Assembly (NCBI GenBank): GCA_021741325.1
Contig: JAIOYC010000004.1
Location: 1-39,655, forward strand
DNA length: 39,655 nucleotides
Reading direction: 5' to 3'
Source of the DNA: Alphaproteobacteria bacterium
GTDB taxonomy: Bacteria > Pseudomonadota > Alphaproteobacteria > Micavibrionales > Micavibrionaceae
The notes beneath the pieces were generated by a model. The model saw nothing but the letters and a program-made list of their open reading frames with translations. It searched no databases and was not told the DNA's origin. Of this stretch, positions 3,426 through 11,035 are shown in pieces. The translations under genes were made by a program, and so were the position numbers. Positions within the stretch are counted from its first letter, which is position 1; every line of letters starts with the position of its first letter.

Positions 3426-3499
3426 GCGGGTGTAGCTTAGTGGTAAAGCACTAGCCTTCCAAGCTAGCTATGAGGGTTCGATTCCCTTCACCCGCTCCA
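3426..3499 (+). tRNA. tRNA-Gly (UCC), integration target of the downstream element
   Basis: The full cloverleaf can be read. The acceptor stem GCGGGTG pairs with CACCCGC, followed by T and an encoded CCA. The anticodon stem CTAGC/GCTAG encloses the loop CTTCCAA with anticodon TCC, and the T arm GAGGG-TTCGATT-CCCTTC is present. The last 20 nt form attL of the element that begins here, so integration preserves the intact tRNA on the left side. Confidence 0.96.
3480..3499 (+). repeat. attL core (direct repeat in the tRNA-Gly 3' end)
   Basis: GATTCCCTTCACCCGCTCCA spans the T-arm 3' half, the acceptor strand and CCA of the tRNA. It is repeated at 12701 with a single missing C. Confidence 0.85.
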
Positions 3500-3622
3500 A
3501 TTTACTCTTCCCCCACGTTCACCCACATTCACTGATGTTCACGAAACCCTTGCAAAACAAGGGTATTTCTTATCATTTCCGTTCATGGTAAGATTTACTC
3601 GTTCACCAGCAATCGCCAATTT

Positions 3623-3685
3623 TGGGGGCATCGTTGGGGGCAGATCAGAAAACGTGGGGGCATCGAAGCCTCAAAATTGGGGGCA
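3623..3685 (+). repeat. Four TGGGGGCA repeats between attL and the integrase (candidate arm-type sites)
   Basis: TGGGGGCA occurs at 3623-3630, 3635-3642, 3655-3662 and 3678-3685, immediately before the integrase ATG at 3688. A matching pair with the same 12-nt spacing occurs inside the right end (12623 and 12635). Paired direct repeats inside both ends are what arm-type integrase binding sites look like. Their position also lets the integrase repress its own promoter. Confidence 0.7.
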
Positions 3686-3687
3686 TC

Positions 3688-4917
3688 ATGAAGTTATCGG
3701 ACAAAACATGCAAAGCGTCAAAAGCCAAGGAAAAGCCTTATAAACTGGCCGATGGCGGGGGTTTGTATCTCGAAATCATGCCCAACGGCTCCAAATGCTG
3801 GCGAATGAAGTACCGTTACCTCGGTAAGGAGAAGCGGCTGGCGTTCGGCGTGTACCCCGTTATCAGCCTCGCTGATGCCCGTACAGCCCGCGACAGGGCC
3901 AAGAAGCTGCTGGCGCAGGGGATTGATCCATCCGGCGCGAAGAAGGAAGAGAAGCGGGAGGCGATCCGTAACGCAGAGAACACCTTCAAGGCCGTGGCAC
4001 TGGAATGGCACGAAAAACAATTATCGCGGTGGACACCGCACCATGCGCTCAATGTTACCCGCCGTTTTGATGTCGATATTTTCCCTTTTATTGGAAACCG
4101 GCCCATTGCGGAAATTGACCCGCCAGAATTGCTTGAGGAAGTCCTGCGGCGCATTGAAAAGCGCGGGGCGTTGGATGTTACGGCGCGGGTAAAACAGATT
4201 TGTGGACAGGTCTTTCGCTACGGCATTGCCACTGGCCGTTGCCAGCGCGATCCGACCGCCGACCTGAAAGGGGCATTGAAGGCCAACCAAACCCAGCATT
4301 TCGCATGTCTTGATATTAAGGAAATGCCGGAGTTTCTGGGCAAGCTGGAAAAGAACGATGCACGGCTTTTCCCTCGCACCCGCCGCGCTATCCGGCTTTT
4401 GATGCTCACCTTCGTCCGCACCAATGAACTGATTAACGCGACATGGGATGAATTCGATCTTGATAACGCCCTTTGGGAAATTCCTGGCTGGCGCATGAAA
4501 ATGCGAAACCCGCACATTGTTCCTCTGTCACGGCAAGCGGTAGCCCTGCTGCGGGAGCAGAAGGAAGAAACGGGCCATCTCAATACGCCGTGGGTGTTTC
4601 CCAGCCAGGTCCGCCCGAAAGACCCAATGAGCAACAATACCATCCTGTTTGCCATCGGACGCATGGGCTATAAAAAGCGCATGACCGGCCACGGCTTCCG
4701 CGCCCTTGCAATGTCGAATATCAAGGAAAAGCTGGGCTACCGGCACGAGGTTGTTGACCGCCAGCTTGCCCATGCCCACAGAAATAAGATTGACCGCGCA
4801 TATGACCGGGCGCAGTTTCTTGATGAGCGCACCACGATGATGCAGGAATGGGCTGATTATCTCGATGGTGTGGCTTGTAGTAAGATTGTGATTGGAAACT
4901 TTAAAAAGGCCAGTTAA
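3688..4917 (+). CDS. int: P4-type tyrosine recombinase (integrase)
   Basis: This 409-residue integrase has an N-terminal DUF4102-type arm-binding domain (KLADGGGLYLEIMPNGSKCW, ending near residue 85), a central SAM-like core-binding domain (about 95-185) and a C-terminal catalytic domain. Catalytic residues visible are the Arg in TFVRTNELINATW, the HxxR in TGHGFR, a His in LAHAHRN and the nucleophile Tyr in DRAYDRA. An in-frame TTG at 3622 would add 22 residues encoded by the TGGGGGCA repeats, so I prefer the ATG at 3688. It should catalyse integration into, and excision from, the tRNA-Gly site. Confidence 0.95.
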   Translation: MKLSDKTCKASKAKEKPYKLADGGGLYLEIMPNGSKCWRMKYRYLGKEKRLAFGVYPVISLADARTARDRAKKLLAQGIDPSGAKKEEKREAIRNAENTFKAVALEWHEKQLSRWTPHHALNVTRRFDVDIFPFIGNRPIAEIDPPELLEEVLRRIEKRGALDVTARVKQICGQVFRYGIATGRCQRDPTADLKGALKANQTQHFACLDIKEMPEFLGKLEKNDARLFPRTRRAIRLLMLTFVRTNELINATWDEFDLDNALWEIPGWRMKMRNPHIVPLSRQAVALLREQKEETGHLNTPWVFPSQVRPKDPMSNNTILFAIGRMGYKKRMTGHGFRALAMSNIKEKLGYRHEVVDRQLAHAHRNKIDRAYDRAQFLDERTTMMQEWADYLDGVACSKIVIGNFKKAS

Positions 4918-5960: not shown

Positions 5961-6272
5961 ATGAATAATGATCTTAGCCCTTGGCAAAAGTCCGATAATG
6001 AATGGTTCGATGTAAATCCCAATCGTTCATATCGCATTCGGCAAGCTATTCCCGGCGAGCCTTTATTAAAAAAATATGGCGGAATTCCAACAATAGATTG
6101 TTGGGTTGTGGTGCGGCTTATCACGCACCGCGTTTATTCTGGCATCCGCTTCATTTCAAAATCACCTCCACTTGATAATGAAGCCATTTTGCAAGGTTTC
6201 TATGAGGCAAAAAAATCTTTGCAAGAAGTAAGTGTATTAAAGGGTCGCACTTTCATTGTGCTGGGAGACTGA
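5961..6272 (+). CDS. Small hypothetical protein of the replication operon
   Basis: This 103-residue protein is of no family I recognise. It has no membrane segment or cysteine cluster, and a mixed Trp/Tyr-rich N-terminus (PWQKSDNEWFDVNPNRSYRIR). A strong GGGAGGG Shine-Dalgarno lies 6 nt before the ATG, and its stop codon sits directly before the prim-pol start, so it is co-translated with the replication genes. The reading 'YRIRQAIPGEP' followed by VVVRLITHRVYSGIRF suggests a compact alpha/beta domain. A role as replication accessory or control protein is possible from position only. Confidence 0.7.
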   Translation: MNNDLSPWQKSDNEWFDVNPNRSYRIRQAIPGEPLLKKYGGIPTIDCWVVVRLITHRVYSGIRFISKSPPLDNEAILQGFYEAKKSLQEVSVLKGRTFIVLGD

Positions 6273-6273
6273 A

Positions 6274-6861
6274 ATGGCACAAGTCATCAAATCAGCGCCA
6301 TTTCAAAAACTCGTGGCAAATGGGTATCTGGAATATATGATCCCAATAGCACCGCCAGATGCAAAAATTCTGCATGGCAGTGCATTGAGAGCGCCCGGAA
6401 AGATGCCGGGAAAATACTTGTCTCAAAAAAAAGCGTGGTGCGGTTTTCCGCGCTGGCAGGATCATGTGACAACGCTCGCCGACATAGCAGAATGGGCAAC
6501 CTGGCCTAATGTTGGGATTGGCATTCGGACGGGCAGGCTTATCGGTATCGACATTGATATTTTACATCCCGACCTTGCCGCTGGCGTGGCGCTAGATTTT
6601 CAAATGGAATTTGGTTTTGCGCCGTGTCGTACTGGGTGCGCACCGAAAAAATTATTGCTTTACCGTCTGGACGGTGAGCCGTGTCAGAAAGCTATTCTTG
6701 ATTTTCAGGGAAATTATAGCGGCAGAATTGAAGTTCTGGGAGCGGGCAATCAATTCGTTGCCTTTGGAACTCATCCATACACCTGCCAGCCTTATAAATG
6801 GGACGGTGGAAGCCCTGCGAACATAACCTTTAATAATTTGCCGGTGCTTTCCAATGGGTAG
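6274..6861 (+). CDS. Prim-pol (bifunctional DNA primase/polymerase N-terminal domain) protein
   Basis: This 195-residue protein consists of the archaeo-eukaryotic prim-pol domain alone. The metal-binding D-x-D is in LIGIDIDI (Asp93 and Asp95), preceded by NVGIGIRTG, and the conserved EVLGAGNQFVAFGTHP block (about residues 150-166) supplies the nucleotide-binding His. Prim-pols prime and extend DNA in plasmids and satellites. The start ATG at 6274 is preceded by GGGAG at good spacing. A TTG at 6256 would overlap the upstream gene. Its stop overlaps the next gene by 8 nt, and the PriCT-like region normally fused to prim-pol is encoded at the beginning of that gene. Confidence 0.9.
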   Translation: MAQVIKSAPFQKLVANGYLEYMIPIAPPDAKILHGSALRAPGKMPGKYLSQKKAWCGFPRWQDHVTTLADIAEWATWPNVGIGIRTGRLIGIDIDILHPDLAAGVALDFQMEFGFAPCRTGCAPKKLLLYRLDGEPCQKAILDFQGNYSGRIEVLGAGNQFVAFGTHPYTCQPYKWDGGSPANITFNNLPVLSNG

Positions 6862-8440
6862 CCTTAATAGAGCAGTAGGGAGCTTGACGGCTTATCTGGA
6901 GAAAAACGGTTACAGCGTTCATTCAGGAGGTGGTGGGAAGACAAGTGACTTGAAGCCACAAAAAGAATTTCCAATCGAATTTCTTGATGAAGAATACATT
7001 ATTAAGAAAGCTATCGCATGGCTTGAAGATGAAGCGCCTATTGCTGAAGAAGGTAATGGCGGAAATGAAACTACTTTTAAAATTGCCTGCGAGCTTTCCA
7101 ATAGAGGCACTTCAGAGGGCAAGGCGCTTGAATTGATGCTTGAACACTGGAATGAGAACAAAGCTGACCCGCCGTGGGACCCCGAAGAACTTCAGTCCGT
7201 GATTAGAAACGCTTATAAATATAATAAGGGCGGTCTTGGATCGAAGCACCCACGTATGATTTTCAACCCTGTGGAAATCAAGCCGGATAGGAATGGTGAA
7301 CATCAAAATCGTTTTGCACCTATTTCATGGGAAGATATCGACAAGCTGCCGCGAAAAGCGCCTCTGATAAAAGGGTTGTTGGATTGTGGGGGAACCAGTG
7401 TTGTCTTTGGCCCGTCGAATTGCGGAAAAAGTTTTTTTGTTCTCGATATGGCGCTTCATGTTGCACTGGGGAAACTATGGAGTAGCCGAAAAATATGCCA
7501 AGGGGCCGTTGTATATATCGCGGCGGAAGGCGGTTTAGGGATCAGGGAGCGACTAGAAGCACTTTACAAGCATTATAAAATCAATAAAAAGCCACCACTT
7601 TACATTATCCCGATCAGCCCAGATTTCTGTAATTCTTCAAAGGATGTTGAAGAAATTATTGCCGCAATATCGGGCCTGTACAATGTTAAATTGATCGTGA
7701 TCGATACATTGAGCCGTGCTATGGCGGGTGGCAATGAGAACAGTCCCGATGATATGGGCGCATTTATAAGGAACTTTGAAAAACTCAAAGATGGAACCGG
7801 CGCGCATATTCTCATTATCCATCACAGCGGCAAAGATAATGCGCGGGGCGCGCGCGGCCATAGTTCCTTGAAGTGCGCAATTGATACAGAAATAGAAATT
7901 ACAAAAAATGGCGATAAGGATGAACAGATTGTAACGGCAGAAATTAAAAAGCAGCGGGACGGACGGACAGACGTTAAGTTCAGCTTTGTTCCTAAAGAAG
8001 TGCAGCTTGGGCAAGACGAGGATGGGGAATGGCTTTCATCCTGCGTTCTCATTCCGGTGGAGGGGGCCGGGCGCAACGTTAAAAAACTATCTGGTCAAAA
8101 GGGACGGGCCTTGAATATTTTGCATTATTGTATCGAAAAAGAAGGAAAAGAGCGCACAGTTAAAAAAGGCTCTCCGCCTGTCATGTGCGTGAAGATCGAG
8201 GAATTCCGCGATGCTCTAAAAAACGGAAATATTAGCAATGCGGACAATCCGGATAGCACCAGACGGATTATTGGGCGTCTCATAAATGACTTAAACGAAC
8301 TCGGGCTTTCCGATACTTACGGCGATCATATCTGGCTGGCGGAAAAACCCGGACAAACTGGGTCGAGCAATCTGCATCAAGCGGACGGACAGGACAAACC
8401 CTATAAGGGTTGTCCGTTGTCCCTTGATTGCTTAAATTAA
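6854..8440 (+). CDS. RepA-like hexameric helicase/ATPase with PriCT-like N-terminus
   Basis: This protein has 528 residues. Residues about 50-125 (ETTFKIACELSNRG, then LMLEHWNENKADPPWDPEEL) resemble the primase C-terminal helical domain that follows prim-pol. Residues about 178-380 form a RecA-like AAA_25/RepA ATPase: Walker A GPSNCGKS (186-193), YIAAEGG, Walker B LIVIDT (280-285) and the sensor region ILIIHHSGKDNARGARG. The C-terminal 120 residues look like a winged-helix tail. With the prim-pol it forms the initiator/helicase of the element. The start ATG overlaps the prim-pol stop (ATGGGTAG), so translation is probably coupled. Confidence 0.9.
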   Translation: MGSLNRAVGSLTAYLEKNGYSVHSGGGGKTSDLKPQKEFPIEFLDEEYIIKKAIAWLEDEAPIAEEGNGGNETTFKIACELSNRGTSEGKALELMLEHWNENKADPPWDPEELQSVIRNAYKYNKGGLGSKHPRMIFNPVEIKPDRNGEHQNRFAPISWEDIDKLPRKAPLIKGLLDCGGTSVVFGPSNCGKSFFVLDMALHVALGKLWSSRKICQGAVVYIAAEGGLGIRERLEALYKHYKINKKPPLYIIPISPDFCNSSKDVEEIIAAISGLYNVKLIVIDTLSRAMAGGNENSPDDMGAFIRNFEKLKDGTGAHILIIHHSGKDNARGARGHSSLKCAIDTEIEITKNGDKDEQIVTAEIKKQRDGRTDVKFSFVPKEVQLGQDEDGEWLSSCVLIPVEGAGRNVKKLSGQKGRALNILHYCIEKEGKERTVKKGSPPVMCVKIEEFRDALKNGNISNADNPDSTRRIIGRLINDLNELGLSDTYGDHIWLAEKPGQTGSSNLHQADGQDKPYKGCPLSLDCLN

Positions 8441-8594: not shown

Positions 8595-8654
8595 TAGCAT
8601 TTTGTCGCTTTTTCTTTATGCTGGGCCTTGGTCTGTGTACGGGCAGACTTGGGC

Positions 8655-8797
8655 TTAAGAACCCATGAATCCTAAGTGGCAGGCATGTGCCACTAAACAT
8701 GTCGCTTTCTCGGTCTATGACCGGGGGGCGGCAGTGTATGTCCAAGCCTCGCGGCTAAAGACTGTCGCGCCATTGTCTTAGGATTCATGGTTCTTAA
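8655..8797. repeat. Long inverted repeat (21 bp arms)
   Basis: Arm 8655-8676 pairs with arm 8777-8797 over 21 positions with one extra C in the left arm. The outer GGG (8651-8653) can also meet CCC (8800-8802). The 100-nt interior is not coding. No target-site duplication flanks it, so it does not look like an insertion-sequence remnant. Confidence 0.85.
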
Positions 8798-8833
8798 CTC
8801 CCGGTCGCCAGACCCGTACCGGCGATTTGGGAG
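8798..8833 (+). promoter_or_regulatory. Hairpin sequestering the Shine-Dalgarno of the gene at 8840
   Basis: CTCCC (8798-8802) pairs with GGGAG (8829-8833), which is the Shine-Dalgarno of the ATG at 8840. Inside, TCGCC (8805-8809) pairs with GGCGA (8821-8825), leaving an 11-nt loop that holds CCCGTAC. Because the loop can pair with loop A at 8637-8643, and CCC 8800-8802 can alternatively pair with GGG 8651-8653, ribosome access could switch with folding of the upstream element. Confidence 0.6.
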
Positions 8834-8839
8834 CATAGA

Positions 8840-9793
8840 ATGAAAATCATAGATAAACTTGATACACCTTTTAAGAGGCTGTCGATTTTGACAGCTCTGG
8901 TGGGACTTATTGTTCTCATTTCTTCATTTTCTATATGGCTGATAAATTCGTACCCCATAACGCTGCTACAAAAAAATTACGTTTACGCATGGCGAACCGA
9001 TGGAGGCAAGCTAAAAGAAAAGGTATGGCGCGTTGACGGAAAATGCGTGTCGGATAAATTAATCCCGTTTATCGATAAAGCTCAGCGTGAATTGAGCGAT
9101 AGAGAAAGTGAGATTTTTGCGCTTGAGAATAAGGATAATGAAAATTCGATTGAAACGATTATAAATAGAAATTTAACTCAAGAAATCGCTTTAAAAGAGA
9201 GAAGGCTACAAATTCAAACACAGCTAAATCTTTTAAAAAGCCATGTTAGTCATTACTTGGGCAACCCGGCCGTAAGCGAAAGTGAATACGCTTTAAACAA
9301 AAATTCGGATTACCAAAACGCCATTAAAATGTTGGCAGAAGGCGGGTTTTCCGAGCAGGAAATTCTTGATTGGATTGAGGAGCGGGGCTTACCCCGAACA
9401 GCGTGCATAGTTGGCGGTATAGGGCATAAGCCTGTGGCGTGTAACACTCTTGAAGATAATTTTGAAGAAAACGCACAAAACTCATTATTGAAATCATTAA
9501 ATTCTTTCGACCTATCGAAGGAAGAAAAAAGCGCTATAAAATCAGAGTGCGTTGAAGAAGCGGAAATCTCGTTTGTCCCCACGCAATCATATTACGTTTC
9601 AGATTTGTCGAAATGGTTGGATAATAATTCTTTTGTAATCTGGCTTGGTGTTATCCTTGTAATCTGTGGCGCGGCAGGGTCGGTCTTTTATAACCGCTCT
9701 CGCGCCCTCTACAATCGAATCCTACGCCCTGCCAAGTACTTTCTCCAAAAACTCTTGCGCTGGATCAAAACGGGTAAAATTGACGGTCAGTAG
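8840..9793 (+). CDS. Two-TM membrane protein with central coiled coil, unknown function
   Basis: This 317-residue protein has one predicted membrane helix near the N-terminus (about 15-36), a long soluble middle part with a charged helical region likely to form a coiled coil (about 78-135), and a second membrane helix (about 265-284) followed by a basic tail. Both termini should face the cytoplasm and the 230-residue middle part the periplasm. It contains four cysteines in that part (Cys69, 189, 201 and 237), compatible with disulfides. I do not recognise a family. Its Shine-Dalgarno GGGAG is buried in the hairpin of the structured element just upstream. It could be element cargo (exclusion or defence) or a growth-inhibiting membrane protein under RNA control, but that is inference. 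Confidence 0.8.
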   Translation: MKIIDKLDTPFKRLSILTALVGLIVLISSFSIWLINSYPITLLQKNYVYAWRTDGGKLKEKVWRVDGKCVSDKLIPFIDKAQRELSDRESEIFALENKDNENSIETIINRNLTQEIALKERRLQIQTQLNLLKSHVSHYLGNPAVSESEYALNKNSDYQNAIKMLAEGGFSEQEILDWIEERGLPRTACIVGGIGHKPVACNTLEDNFEENAQNSLLKSLNSFDLSKEEKSAIKSECVEEAEISFVPTQSYYVSDLSKWLDNNSFVIWLGVILVICGAAGSVFYNRSRALYNRILRPAKYFLQKLLRWIKTGKIDGQ

Positions 9794-10153: not shown

Positions 10154-11035
10154 TTATGCTGTGCGGTATTGAGGCCTATTTGCTTGTCGACCTCTTATCT
10201 CGAGAGGCAGGCGCAATCCTTTCGAGGCTATAAGAAGCTCGGAGCCAACGCGCTTTGTCTGAATGGAATAATTTATATCAAACAAAAATTGCCGACGGTC
10301 CGCATAGAGGTCTTTTATCTCCGGGGTGTAATCGTAAGTCACAATCCACGGATGCCTCAGCTTTAAAATTGTTTTGGCCACGGCCGCATGTTCATCTGTG
10401 CCGTAATAGTTTGCATACAACGCTGATCCTTTATTGAAGTAAGGAGGGTCAATACAAAAAAACGTATCGTCCGGCAGCGTTTTTTGCGACTGCTTCATAA
10501 ACTCTATCGCATCGAGATTGCTTAGATGAATCCGGTTGCGATATTTTGCAATCCGCGCAATGCGCCCCTTCAACTCCTGGCGATTGAAACGGCAATCAAT
10601 TTTGTAATCTCCCGTTTGGGATAAGCCTCCTATGATCCCTGCGCCTTTAATAATTCCAGAGCGATTGGTTCTATTCAGAAAGAAAGTCGCAAACGCAAGT
10701 CGAAGGATATCCCTCTTGCTCGATTGGCTATAAATTTTCTTTTGCCGCTGCCATTCTTCGACGGTAACGGGCGTAGTTTCCACTAACTCTATAAATTCGT
10801 CAGTTCTGTCGAGCACACACTTCCAGAAAGACCAGATAGAAACGTCTAAATCGTTTATATGAATGTCACTGACATGCCCGCCATACAGCAGCGCCAACGC
10901 CAGCCCGCATCCCCCGGCGTAAGGTTCGACGTAATGCCCGCGCTCTAAACGGTTCTCTTGAAGGATACTGGATACCAGATCATGCAGGCAGGACTTTCCG
11001 CCGGGGTATCGCAGTGGTGAGGTTGCCTTTGCCAT
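10154..11035 (-). CDS. D12-class (Dam-like) N6-adenine DNA methyltransferase
   Basis: This 293-residue enzyme has the D12-class motif order: motif X RYPGGK (residues 9-14), motif I VEPYAGGCG (36-44, AdoMet binding), a middle target-recognition region with FLNRTNRSGI, and motif IV DPPY (196-199, catalytic). Family members methylate adenine at short palindromes such as GATC or GATATC, and the target here cannot be deduced. No restriction endonuclease gene accompanies it. It lies 66 nt downstream of the ParB/Srx gene on the same strand, so the two form an operon. Possible roles are protection of the element DNA, gene regulation, or the modification half of a defence pair. Confidence 0.9.
   Translation of the reverse strand: MAKATSPLRYPGGKSCLHDLVSSILQENRLERGHYVEPYAGGCGLALALLYGGHVSDIHINDLDVSIWSFWKCVLDRTDEFIELVETTPVTVEEWQRQKKIYSQSSKRDILRLAFATFFLNRTNRSGIIKGAGIIGGLSQTGDYKIDCRFNRQELKGRIARIAKYRNRIHLSNLDAIEFMKQSQKTLPDDTFFCIDPPYFNKGSALYANYYGTDEHAAVAKTILKLRHPWIVTYDYTPEIKDLYADRRQFLFDINYSIQTKRVGSELLIASKGLRLPLEIRGRQANRPQYRTA

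Follow-up and report, generated by a model that had tools for sequence, protein, structure and literature searches.

A pseudoknotted RNA in a Micavibrionales integrative element as a distant member of the sRNA-Xcc1 family and probable leader switch

The RNA at positions 8630-8833 on the + strand of the window (the whole 39,655-nucleotide stretch of Micavibrionaceae DNA that was analyzed) belongs by homology to a large RNA family, of which it is a Micavibrionales representative; sRNA-Xcc1, described as trans-acting, is the family's best-known member. The window RNA probably acts in cis, as a leader switch for the gene starting at 8840.

Within an integrative element, the RNA follows a helicase gene and precedes a 317-aa ORF. 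As judged from family matches, this element carries a tyrosine integrase of the Arm-DNA-bind_3 phage type (Phage_integrase, Arm-DNA-bind_3; 3622-4917, +), a Prim-Pol type primase (6256-6861, +), and a replicative helicase (AAA_25, PriCT_1; 6854-8440, +). The integrase gene adjoins a tRNA-Gly (TCC) gene (3426-3499, +), which is the probable attachment site. Within the window, no direct repeat was found to delimit the element on its far side, and no promoter stood out at the 8630-8833 locus. The gene behind the RNA (8840-9793, +), known from its ORF translation, encodes an orphan protein: it had no Pfam or PHROG match and no relatives in 143 genomes. Reading of the translation suggests that the product is likely membrane-anchored. 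A D12 class adenine methyltransferase gene, possibly cargo of the element, adjoins the orphan gene (10154-11035, -).

Fold and covariation of the RNA at 8630-8833

The segment folded with -109.6 kcal/mol, compared with -79.1 (S.D. 4.9) for shuffled sequences (z -6.2), and none of 200 shuffles folded as well. A preliminary description, made from the letters of this DNA, had drawn a 21-bp stem with one bulge, three enclosed hairpins, and flanking hairpins, and each of these parts was found where it had been placed. All features given below lie on the + strand. The 5' hairpin P0 (8630-8649) is followed by hairpin H1 (8649-8665, UGGG/CCCA), whose loop UUAAGAA belongs to strand A (8655-8676), the 5' half of the long stem P1. 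In this stem of 21 bp, 8655-8663 plus 8665-8676 pair with 8777-8788 plus 8789-8797, and C8664 is bulged. Enclosed within P1 are hairpin P2 (8676-8693; GUGGCA/UGCCAC, 8676-8681/8688-8693), hairpin P3 (8704-8729; 8704-8715/8719-8729), and P4 (8729-8768), which bears the conserved core GUAUGUCCAAGC and the inner hairpin P5 (8745-8756), a 4-bp tetraloop hairpin. Two features go beyond the earlier stem model. One is a pseudoknot (8682-8703) formed by the P2 loop 8682-8688 with 8697-8703, which covaries in 44 homologues. The other is the alternative helix Px, ACCGGGAG:CUCCCGGU, in which the 3' strand of P3 (8719-8727) pairs with 8798-8806 instead. P3 and Px are mutually exclusive because one strand is common to both.

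Strand A', the 3' half of P1 (8777-8797), is directly followed by segment X' (CUCCCGGUC, 8798-8806), which has three possible partners: 8719-8727 in Px, GGG at 8651-8653 in helix P1a, or the Shine-Dalgarno sequence GGGAG at 8829-8833, complementary to CUCCC at 8798-8802. The 3' hairpin (8803-8828) has the loop CCCGUAC at 8813-8819 and lies where homologues carry an intrinsic terminator; only UUU comes after it here. Its base is also taken up by Px. The window copy thus combines a weak T-run with a perfect CUCCC:GGGAG pair. Pairing between 8599-8618 and the region of the start codon, considered as a peculiarity of the window, was discarded, as it did not stand out among copies.

In a 13-copy alignment (A3), 97.6% of cells were paired, compared with 86% after shuffling and 35-50% in slid controls, and 21 of 51 pairs showed double changes. 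Helices were then counted one by one on 44 copies. P1, P2, the pseudoknot, P3, P4, P5, Px, H1, and P1a all covaried, and each of the inner 10 pairs of P1 showed double changes; for H1, P1a, and Px the shuffle maxima were exceeded only narrowly. Conserved G-U pairs support a + strand RNA, as the preliminary description had held, and the compensatory changes that it expected in P1, P4, and the two outer loops are present in the homologues. These results showed that the RNA is real and that its structure is under selection.

A kissing contact between GTACGGG (8637-8643) in P0 and CCCGTAC in the 3' hairpin had also been proposed. The 7-nt complementarity is as described, while the claim that both segments lie wholly in loops had to be narrowed: only 6 of 7 nt are strictly in the first loop, because G8643 closes the hairpin as a U-G pair. 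The contact was assessed on 100 distinct copies by counting consecutive Watson-Crick matches between the 32 nt before P1 and the apex of the 3' hairpin. Complementarity of at least 7 nt occurred at 9 of 100 loci (1.04 expected by permutation) and of at least 6 nt at 14 of 100 (3.8 expected), and 0 of 5000 permutations reached the observed values; the permutation tests preserve composition, not phylogeny, and thus do not fully remove relatedness among loci. The kissing sequences themselves differ among loci. An adjacent control segment gave no excess (P 0.46). The proposed contact is borne out across loci by this excess.

Homologues and their genomic position

A DNA-only search of related genomes found the RNA core many times, in Micavibrio-type Alphaproteobacteria. 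A covariance model (R1) was built from the alignment and structure of 13 copies. The structure was assembled by hand from individual folds on a cleaner alignment; a plain MAFFT consensus mixed alternative helices. Of 142 genomes from the order Micavibrionales, 97 had full-length copies by R1, the most in any one genome being 8; in a sample of 398 Pseudomonadota genomes, 22 had such copies. The Micavibrionales form gave only chance matches in phage and plasmid collections, and the IMG/VR sequences matching a 17-mer of P1 (L022-L024) contained no such RNA. Two copies are present in the genome of the window itself. The second (L276, G000:C7:17000-23000; RNA 2218-2372, +) is in another integrative element, where it adjoins helicase (AAA), primase, and AlpA-like genes and precedes a lipoprotein gene.

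A hairpin stood directly 3' of the RNA in 106 of 107 copies, mostly beginning inside X', and 90 of these hairpins carried a T-run. Of the 107 copies, 100 also had a Shine-Dalgarno sequence and start codon behind the RNA, the median distance being 48 nt. The earlier suggestion of an ncRNA class or cis regulator is supported. The ORFs behind the copies are unrelated to each other and encode lipoproteins, membrane proteins, and HTH, zinc ribbon, GIY-YIG, Uzume, and type III methylase proteins; no common function was found among the Micavibrionales downstream genes. It had been advised to collect homologues upstream of relatives of the 8840 gene, a guide that fails because the protein has no relatives while the RNA is widespread before unrelated genes. 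GGGAG, complementary to CUCCC of X', preceded 39% of the downstream ORFs and 3.9% of the other long ORFs in the loci, a background that is loose because many of these other ORFs are not genes. In L077, L079, L080, and L082-L084, from other Alphaproteobacteria, the 3' end is of a third kind, with a conserved GCGGGGGCGcACCGC hairpin after CUCCCC.

Among 134 sampled neighbouring proteins, the commonest families were AAA_25 helicase (5) and phage integrase (4), and rarer ones included genes for VapE, AbiTii, and methylases. Many of the remaining neighbours are unremarkable genes of the chromosome. The neighbours being of mixed kind, the unit of RNA plus gene therefore lies partly, not always, in recognisable mobile elements. 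Small paralogous proteins (40-80 aa), each behind its own RNA copy, were observed at L006, L034, and L050 of one genome and at L247, L256, L289, L251, and L290, a pattern suggesting joint duplication of RNA and gene. UzuA of the Uzume defence system was matched twice among the Micavibrionales downstream proteins; similar sequences indicate that these matches probably stem from the ORFs downstream of L053 and L060.

Relation to sRNA-Xcc1 and the phage members

At curated thresholds, Rfam recognized only two tRNAs in the whole window. In E-value mode, the window copy matched RF02221 (sRNA-Xcc1) with 25.7 bits (E 0.024), below the gathering threshold of 53 bits. The best score among Micavibrionales copies, 44.8 bits for L005, was also below it, and 7 of 20 Micavibrionales copies matched at E 0.01. 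Model positions 1-87 were aligned in full in the window and its relatives, indicating homology of the 87-nt core; the aligned region of the window is 8719-8814. In the other direction, R1 matched RF02221 loci end to end (L107, L110, L115, L106, L096, and L236). Because these matches start ~100 nt before the Rfam model, RF02221 covers the 3' part of a longer RNA, and conserved, covarying sequence was found ~100 nt 5' of the model in phage and genome loci. The RF02221 model thus appears to be truncated, covering 87 nt out of a ~200-nt RNA, and on these alignments we place the window RNA as a distant, unannotated branch of the sRNA-Xcc1 family. The earlier statement that the RNA belongs to no known class is therefore accurate at Rfam gathering thresholds and does not apply to its 3' part, which is homologous to sRNA-Xcc1.

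sRNA-Xcc1 was cloned as an 88-nt RNA in Xanthomonas and seen on Northern blots (PMC2996969). It has been reported in an integron cassette, upstream of symE (PMC12444791), and seven times in Xylella, where five copies are spaced ~381 bp apart (PMC12189769). Resembling this spacing, tandem RNA copies 240-380 bp apart were observed at L260 (1636-1779 and 1915-2057), L296 (2476-2657 and 2850-3037), and L185 (7043 and 7286). The window RNA and sRNA-Xcc1 have in common the 3' part, the Px stem, the P4/P5 core, mobile context, and multiple copies. They differ in that sRNA-Xcc1 is represented by an 87-nt Rfam model and described as trans-acting, whereas RNAs of the window type measure ~150-210 nt and add H1, P1, and the pseudoknot, and in Micavibrionales also P0 and the 3' hairpin.

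The exact core pattern was matched by at least 120 IMG/VR contigs. The proteins downstream of phage members (n = 52) matched P22_AR_C (12), KilA-N (11), Rha (8), AntA (8), ORF6N (6), P22_AR_N (5), and Bro-N (5), with overlaps. Judged by these genes, the RF02221 family in phages is a putative 5' leader of antirepressor genes, a role of which no description was found in the open-access literature. E. coli prophages contained two tandem RNA copies, each before an antirepressor gene. In Escherichia phage PPwrbA_EH2201 (L236, 1860-2620), two tandem modules of leader plus AntA antirepressor lie 540 bp apart, and 385 E. coli genomes carry related sequence at antirepressor genes.

De novo covariation analysis of the phage members recovered Px, P4, the pairing of the H1 loop with A', P1, and the pseudoknot helix. 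In these members, the counterpart of A' can also pair with the Shine-Dalgarno region. A' against the locus's own Shine-Dalgarno region gave -23.7, compared with -17.8 for permuted combinations, in 22 beta/gamma-like genome loci, and -18.05 compared with -13.25 (0/5000) in 54 non-redundant viral loci. At 49 of the 54 viral loci, A' had at least 6 Watson-Crick matches on both its upstream and its downstream side (permuted mean 13.1, maximum 24), and 36 of 50 downstream matching segments overlapped or abutted the Shine-Dalgarno sequence (6.0 expected). We interpret this dual complementarity as the signature of a three-strand switch. In addition, a T5 run lies within the 5' part of the RNA in 57 of 68 phage members, at the place where the pseudoknot helix is terminator-like in form. 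In Micavibrionales, complementarity of A' to the Shine-Dalgarno region was not above permutation (P 0.07), so the argument for a switch there proceeds from homology and overlapping helices, namely the overlap with the terminator, and from the GGGAG:CUCCC pairing, which is partly what any Shine-Dalgarno sequence would show.

Proposed switch, alternatives, and known systems

In the mechanism that we propose, the knotted core would hold or release a strand able to silence the gene. We infer that the gene would be on as long as the folded RNA keeps hold of A' and of the CUCCC next to it. In the phage type, released A'/CUCCC would pair with the Shine-Dalgarno region and turn the gene off by occlusion. 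In the Micavibrionales type, the gene would be off when the 3' terminator, whose base overlaps Px, is left intact. Since the terminator of the window copy is weak, control there is more likely to be exerted where CUCCC (8798-8802) can pair with GGGAG (8829-8833). The trigger might be a ligand or a protein, or else a shorter isoform might act in trans, of which IsrK is a demonstrated case.

A stand-alone small RNA with its own promoter and terminator might instead act in trans, with the ORF behind it as a passenger. A strong terminator in most Micavibrionales copies (90 of 107) and the pairing of the two outermost hairpin loops, by which a finished RNA would have its ends tied together, suit this reading and count against the leader switch, and sRNA-Xcc1 is itself an 88-nt cloned RNA detected on Northern blots (PMC2996969). 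That 100 of 107 copies lie a median of 48 nt before the start codons of unrelated genes is unexpected for a free small RNA, and the Shine-Dalgarno regions in phages match A' locus by locus; we regard the stand-alone reading as rather unlikely. Both modes would be combined if a short terminated isoform of the leader freed the Shine-Dalgarno sequence of full-length transcripts in trans, as IsrK does in Gifsy-1. That precedent, the internal T5 run and terminator-like pseudoknot helix of the phage members, and the presence on such a short product of strand A, complementary to A', speak for it. Micavibrionales copies are devoid of an internal T-run and no match to IsrK (RF01394) was obtained, and we consider this combination very unlikely.

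A function at the DNA level, as replication origin, single-strand recombination site, or MITE with 21-bp terminal inverted repeats, could be imagined from the long inverted repeat and from the position after the primase and helicase genes. The conserved G-U pairs, and pairs preserved through G-U changes, fit an RNA. A MITE or terminal inverted repeat is rejected because P1 varies in sequence from copy to copy and yet stays paired. Only two copies exist in the window's own genome, the second with different cargo, and nearly every copy is followed by an ORF of like orientation. The replication origin, raised in the preliminary description, is further disfavoured by several copies per genome, mostly without adjoining replication genes and nearly always just before an ORF. 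A DNA-level element is thus extremely improbable, and the cis-acting leader switch is the reading that we prefer.

More tentatively, and with more doubt than confidence, the family could be a new RNA switch class with members in phages and integrative elements throughout Pseudomonadota. It would answer a common signal, be it a ligand, a host factor, or a short isoform of the RNA itself, and turn on antirepressor and other accessory genes, and sRNA-Xcc1 would be a fragment of it. If so, the timing of prophage and satellite activity would depend in part on the RNA. In many temperate phages, antirepressors take part in the choice between dormancy and induction, and a conserved RNA switch before them would be a shared control point, hidden in annotation under a small-RNA name. 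For predatory Micavibrio-like bacteria, the analysis adds a previously unannotated multi-copy RNA.

Among known systems, retrons (msr-msd) are not indicated, since the genes beside the RNA had no match to a reverse transcriptase family; likewise, no covariance-model match to HEARO or omega RNA and no adjacent IscB or TnpB gene was found. Control of a phage antirepressor by RNA is known from the C4 antisense RNA of phages P1 and P7 (RF01695), which, unlike the window RNA, works as an antisense RNA. Riboswitches controlling a terminator or Shine-Dalgarno sequence are alike in having one conserved core, different expression platforms, and mutually exclusive helices, and unlike in that the downstream genes here point to no metabolite; no Rfam riboswitch matched in the window. 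A structured domain with a mutually exclusive platform before a gene was found in the phage members, and in Micavibrionales the corresponding findings are a terminator base overlapping Px and an A'-Shine-Dalgarno test that was not significant. Neither IsrK (RF01394) nor C4 (RF01695) gave a covariance-model match in the window, L005, or 10 phage loci. IsrK of Gifsy-1 has no sequence match to the window RNA family, and it differs in fold and in exerting control through an upstream ORF. It is alike as a prophage leader before an antirepressor operon, with terminated and read-through isoforms, and provides an experimental precedent for alternative structures in such a leader deciding translation (PMC4825925).
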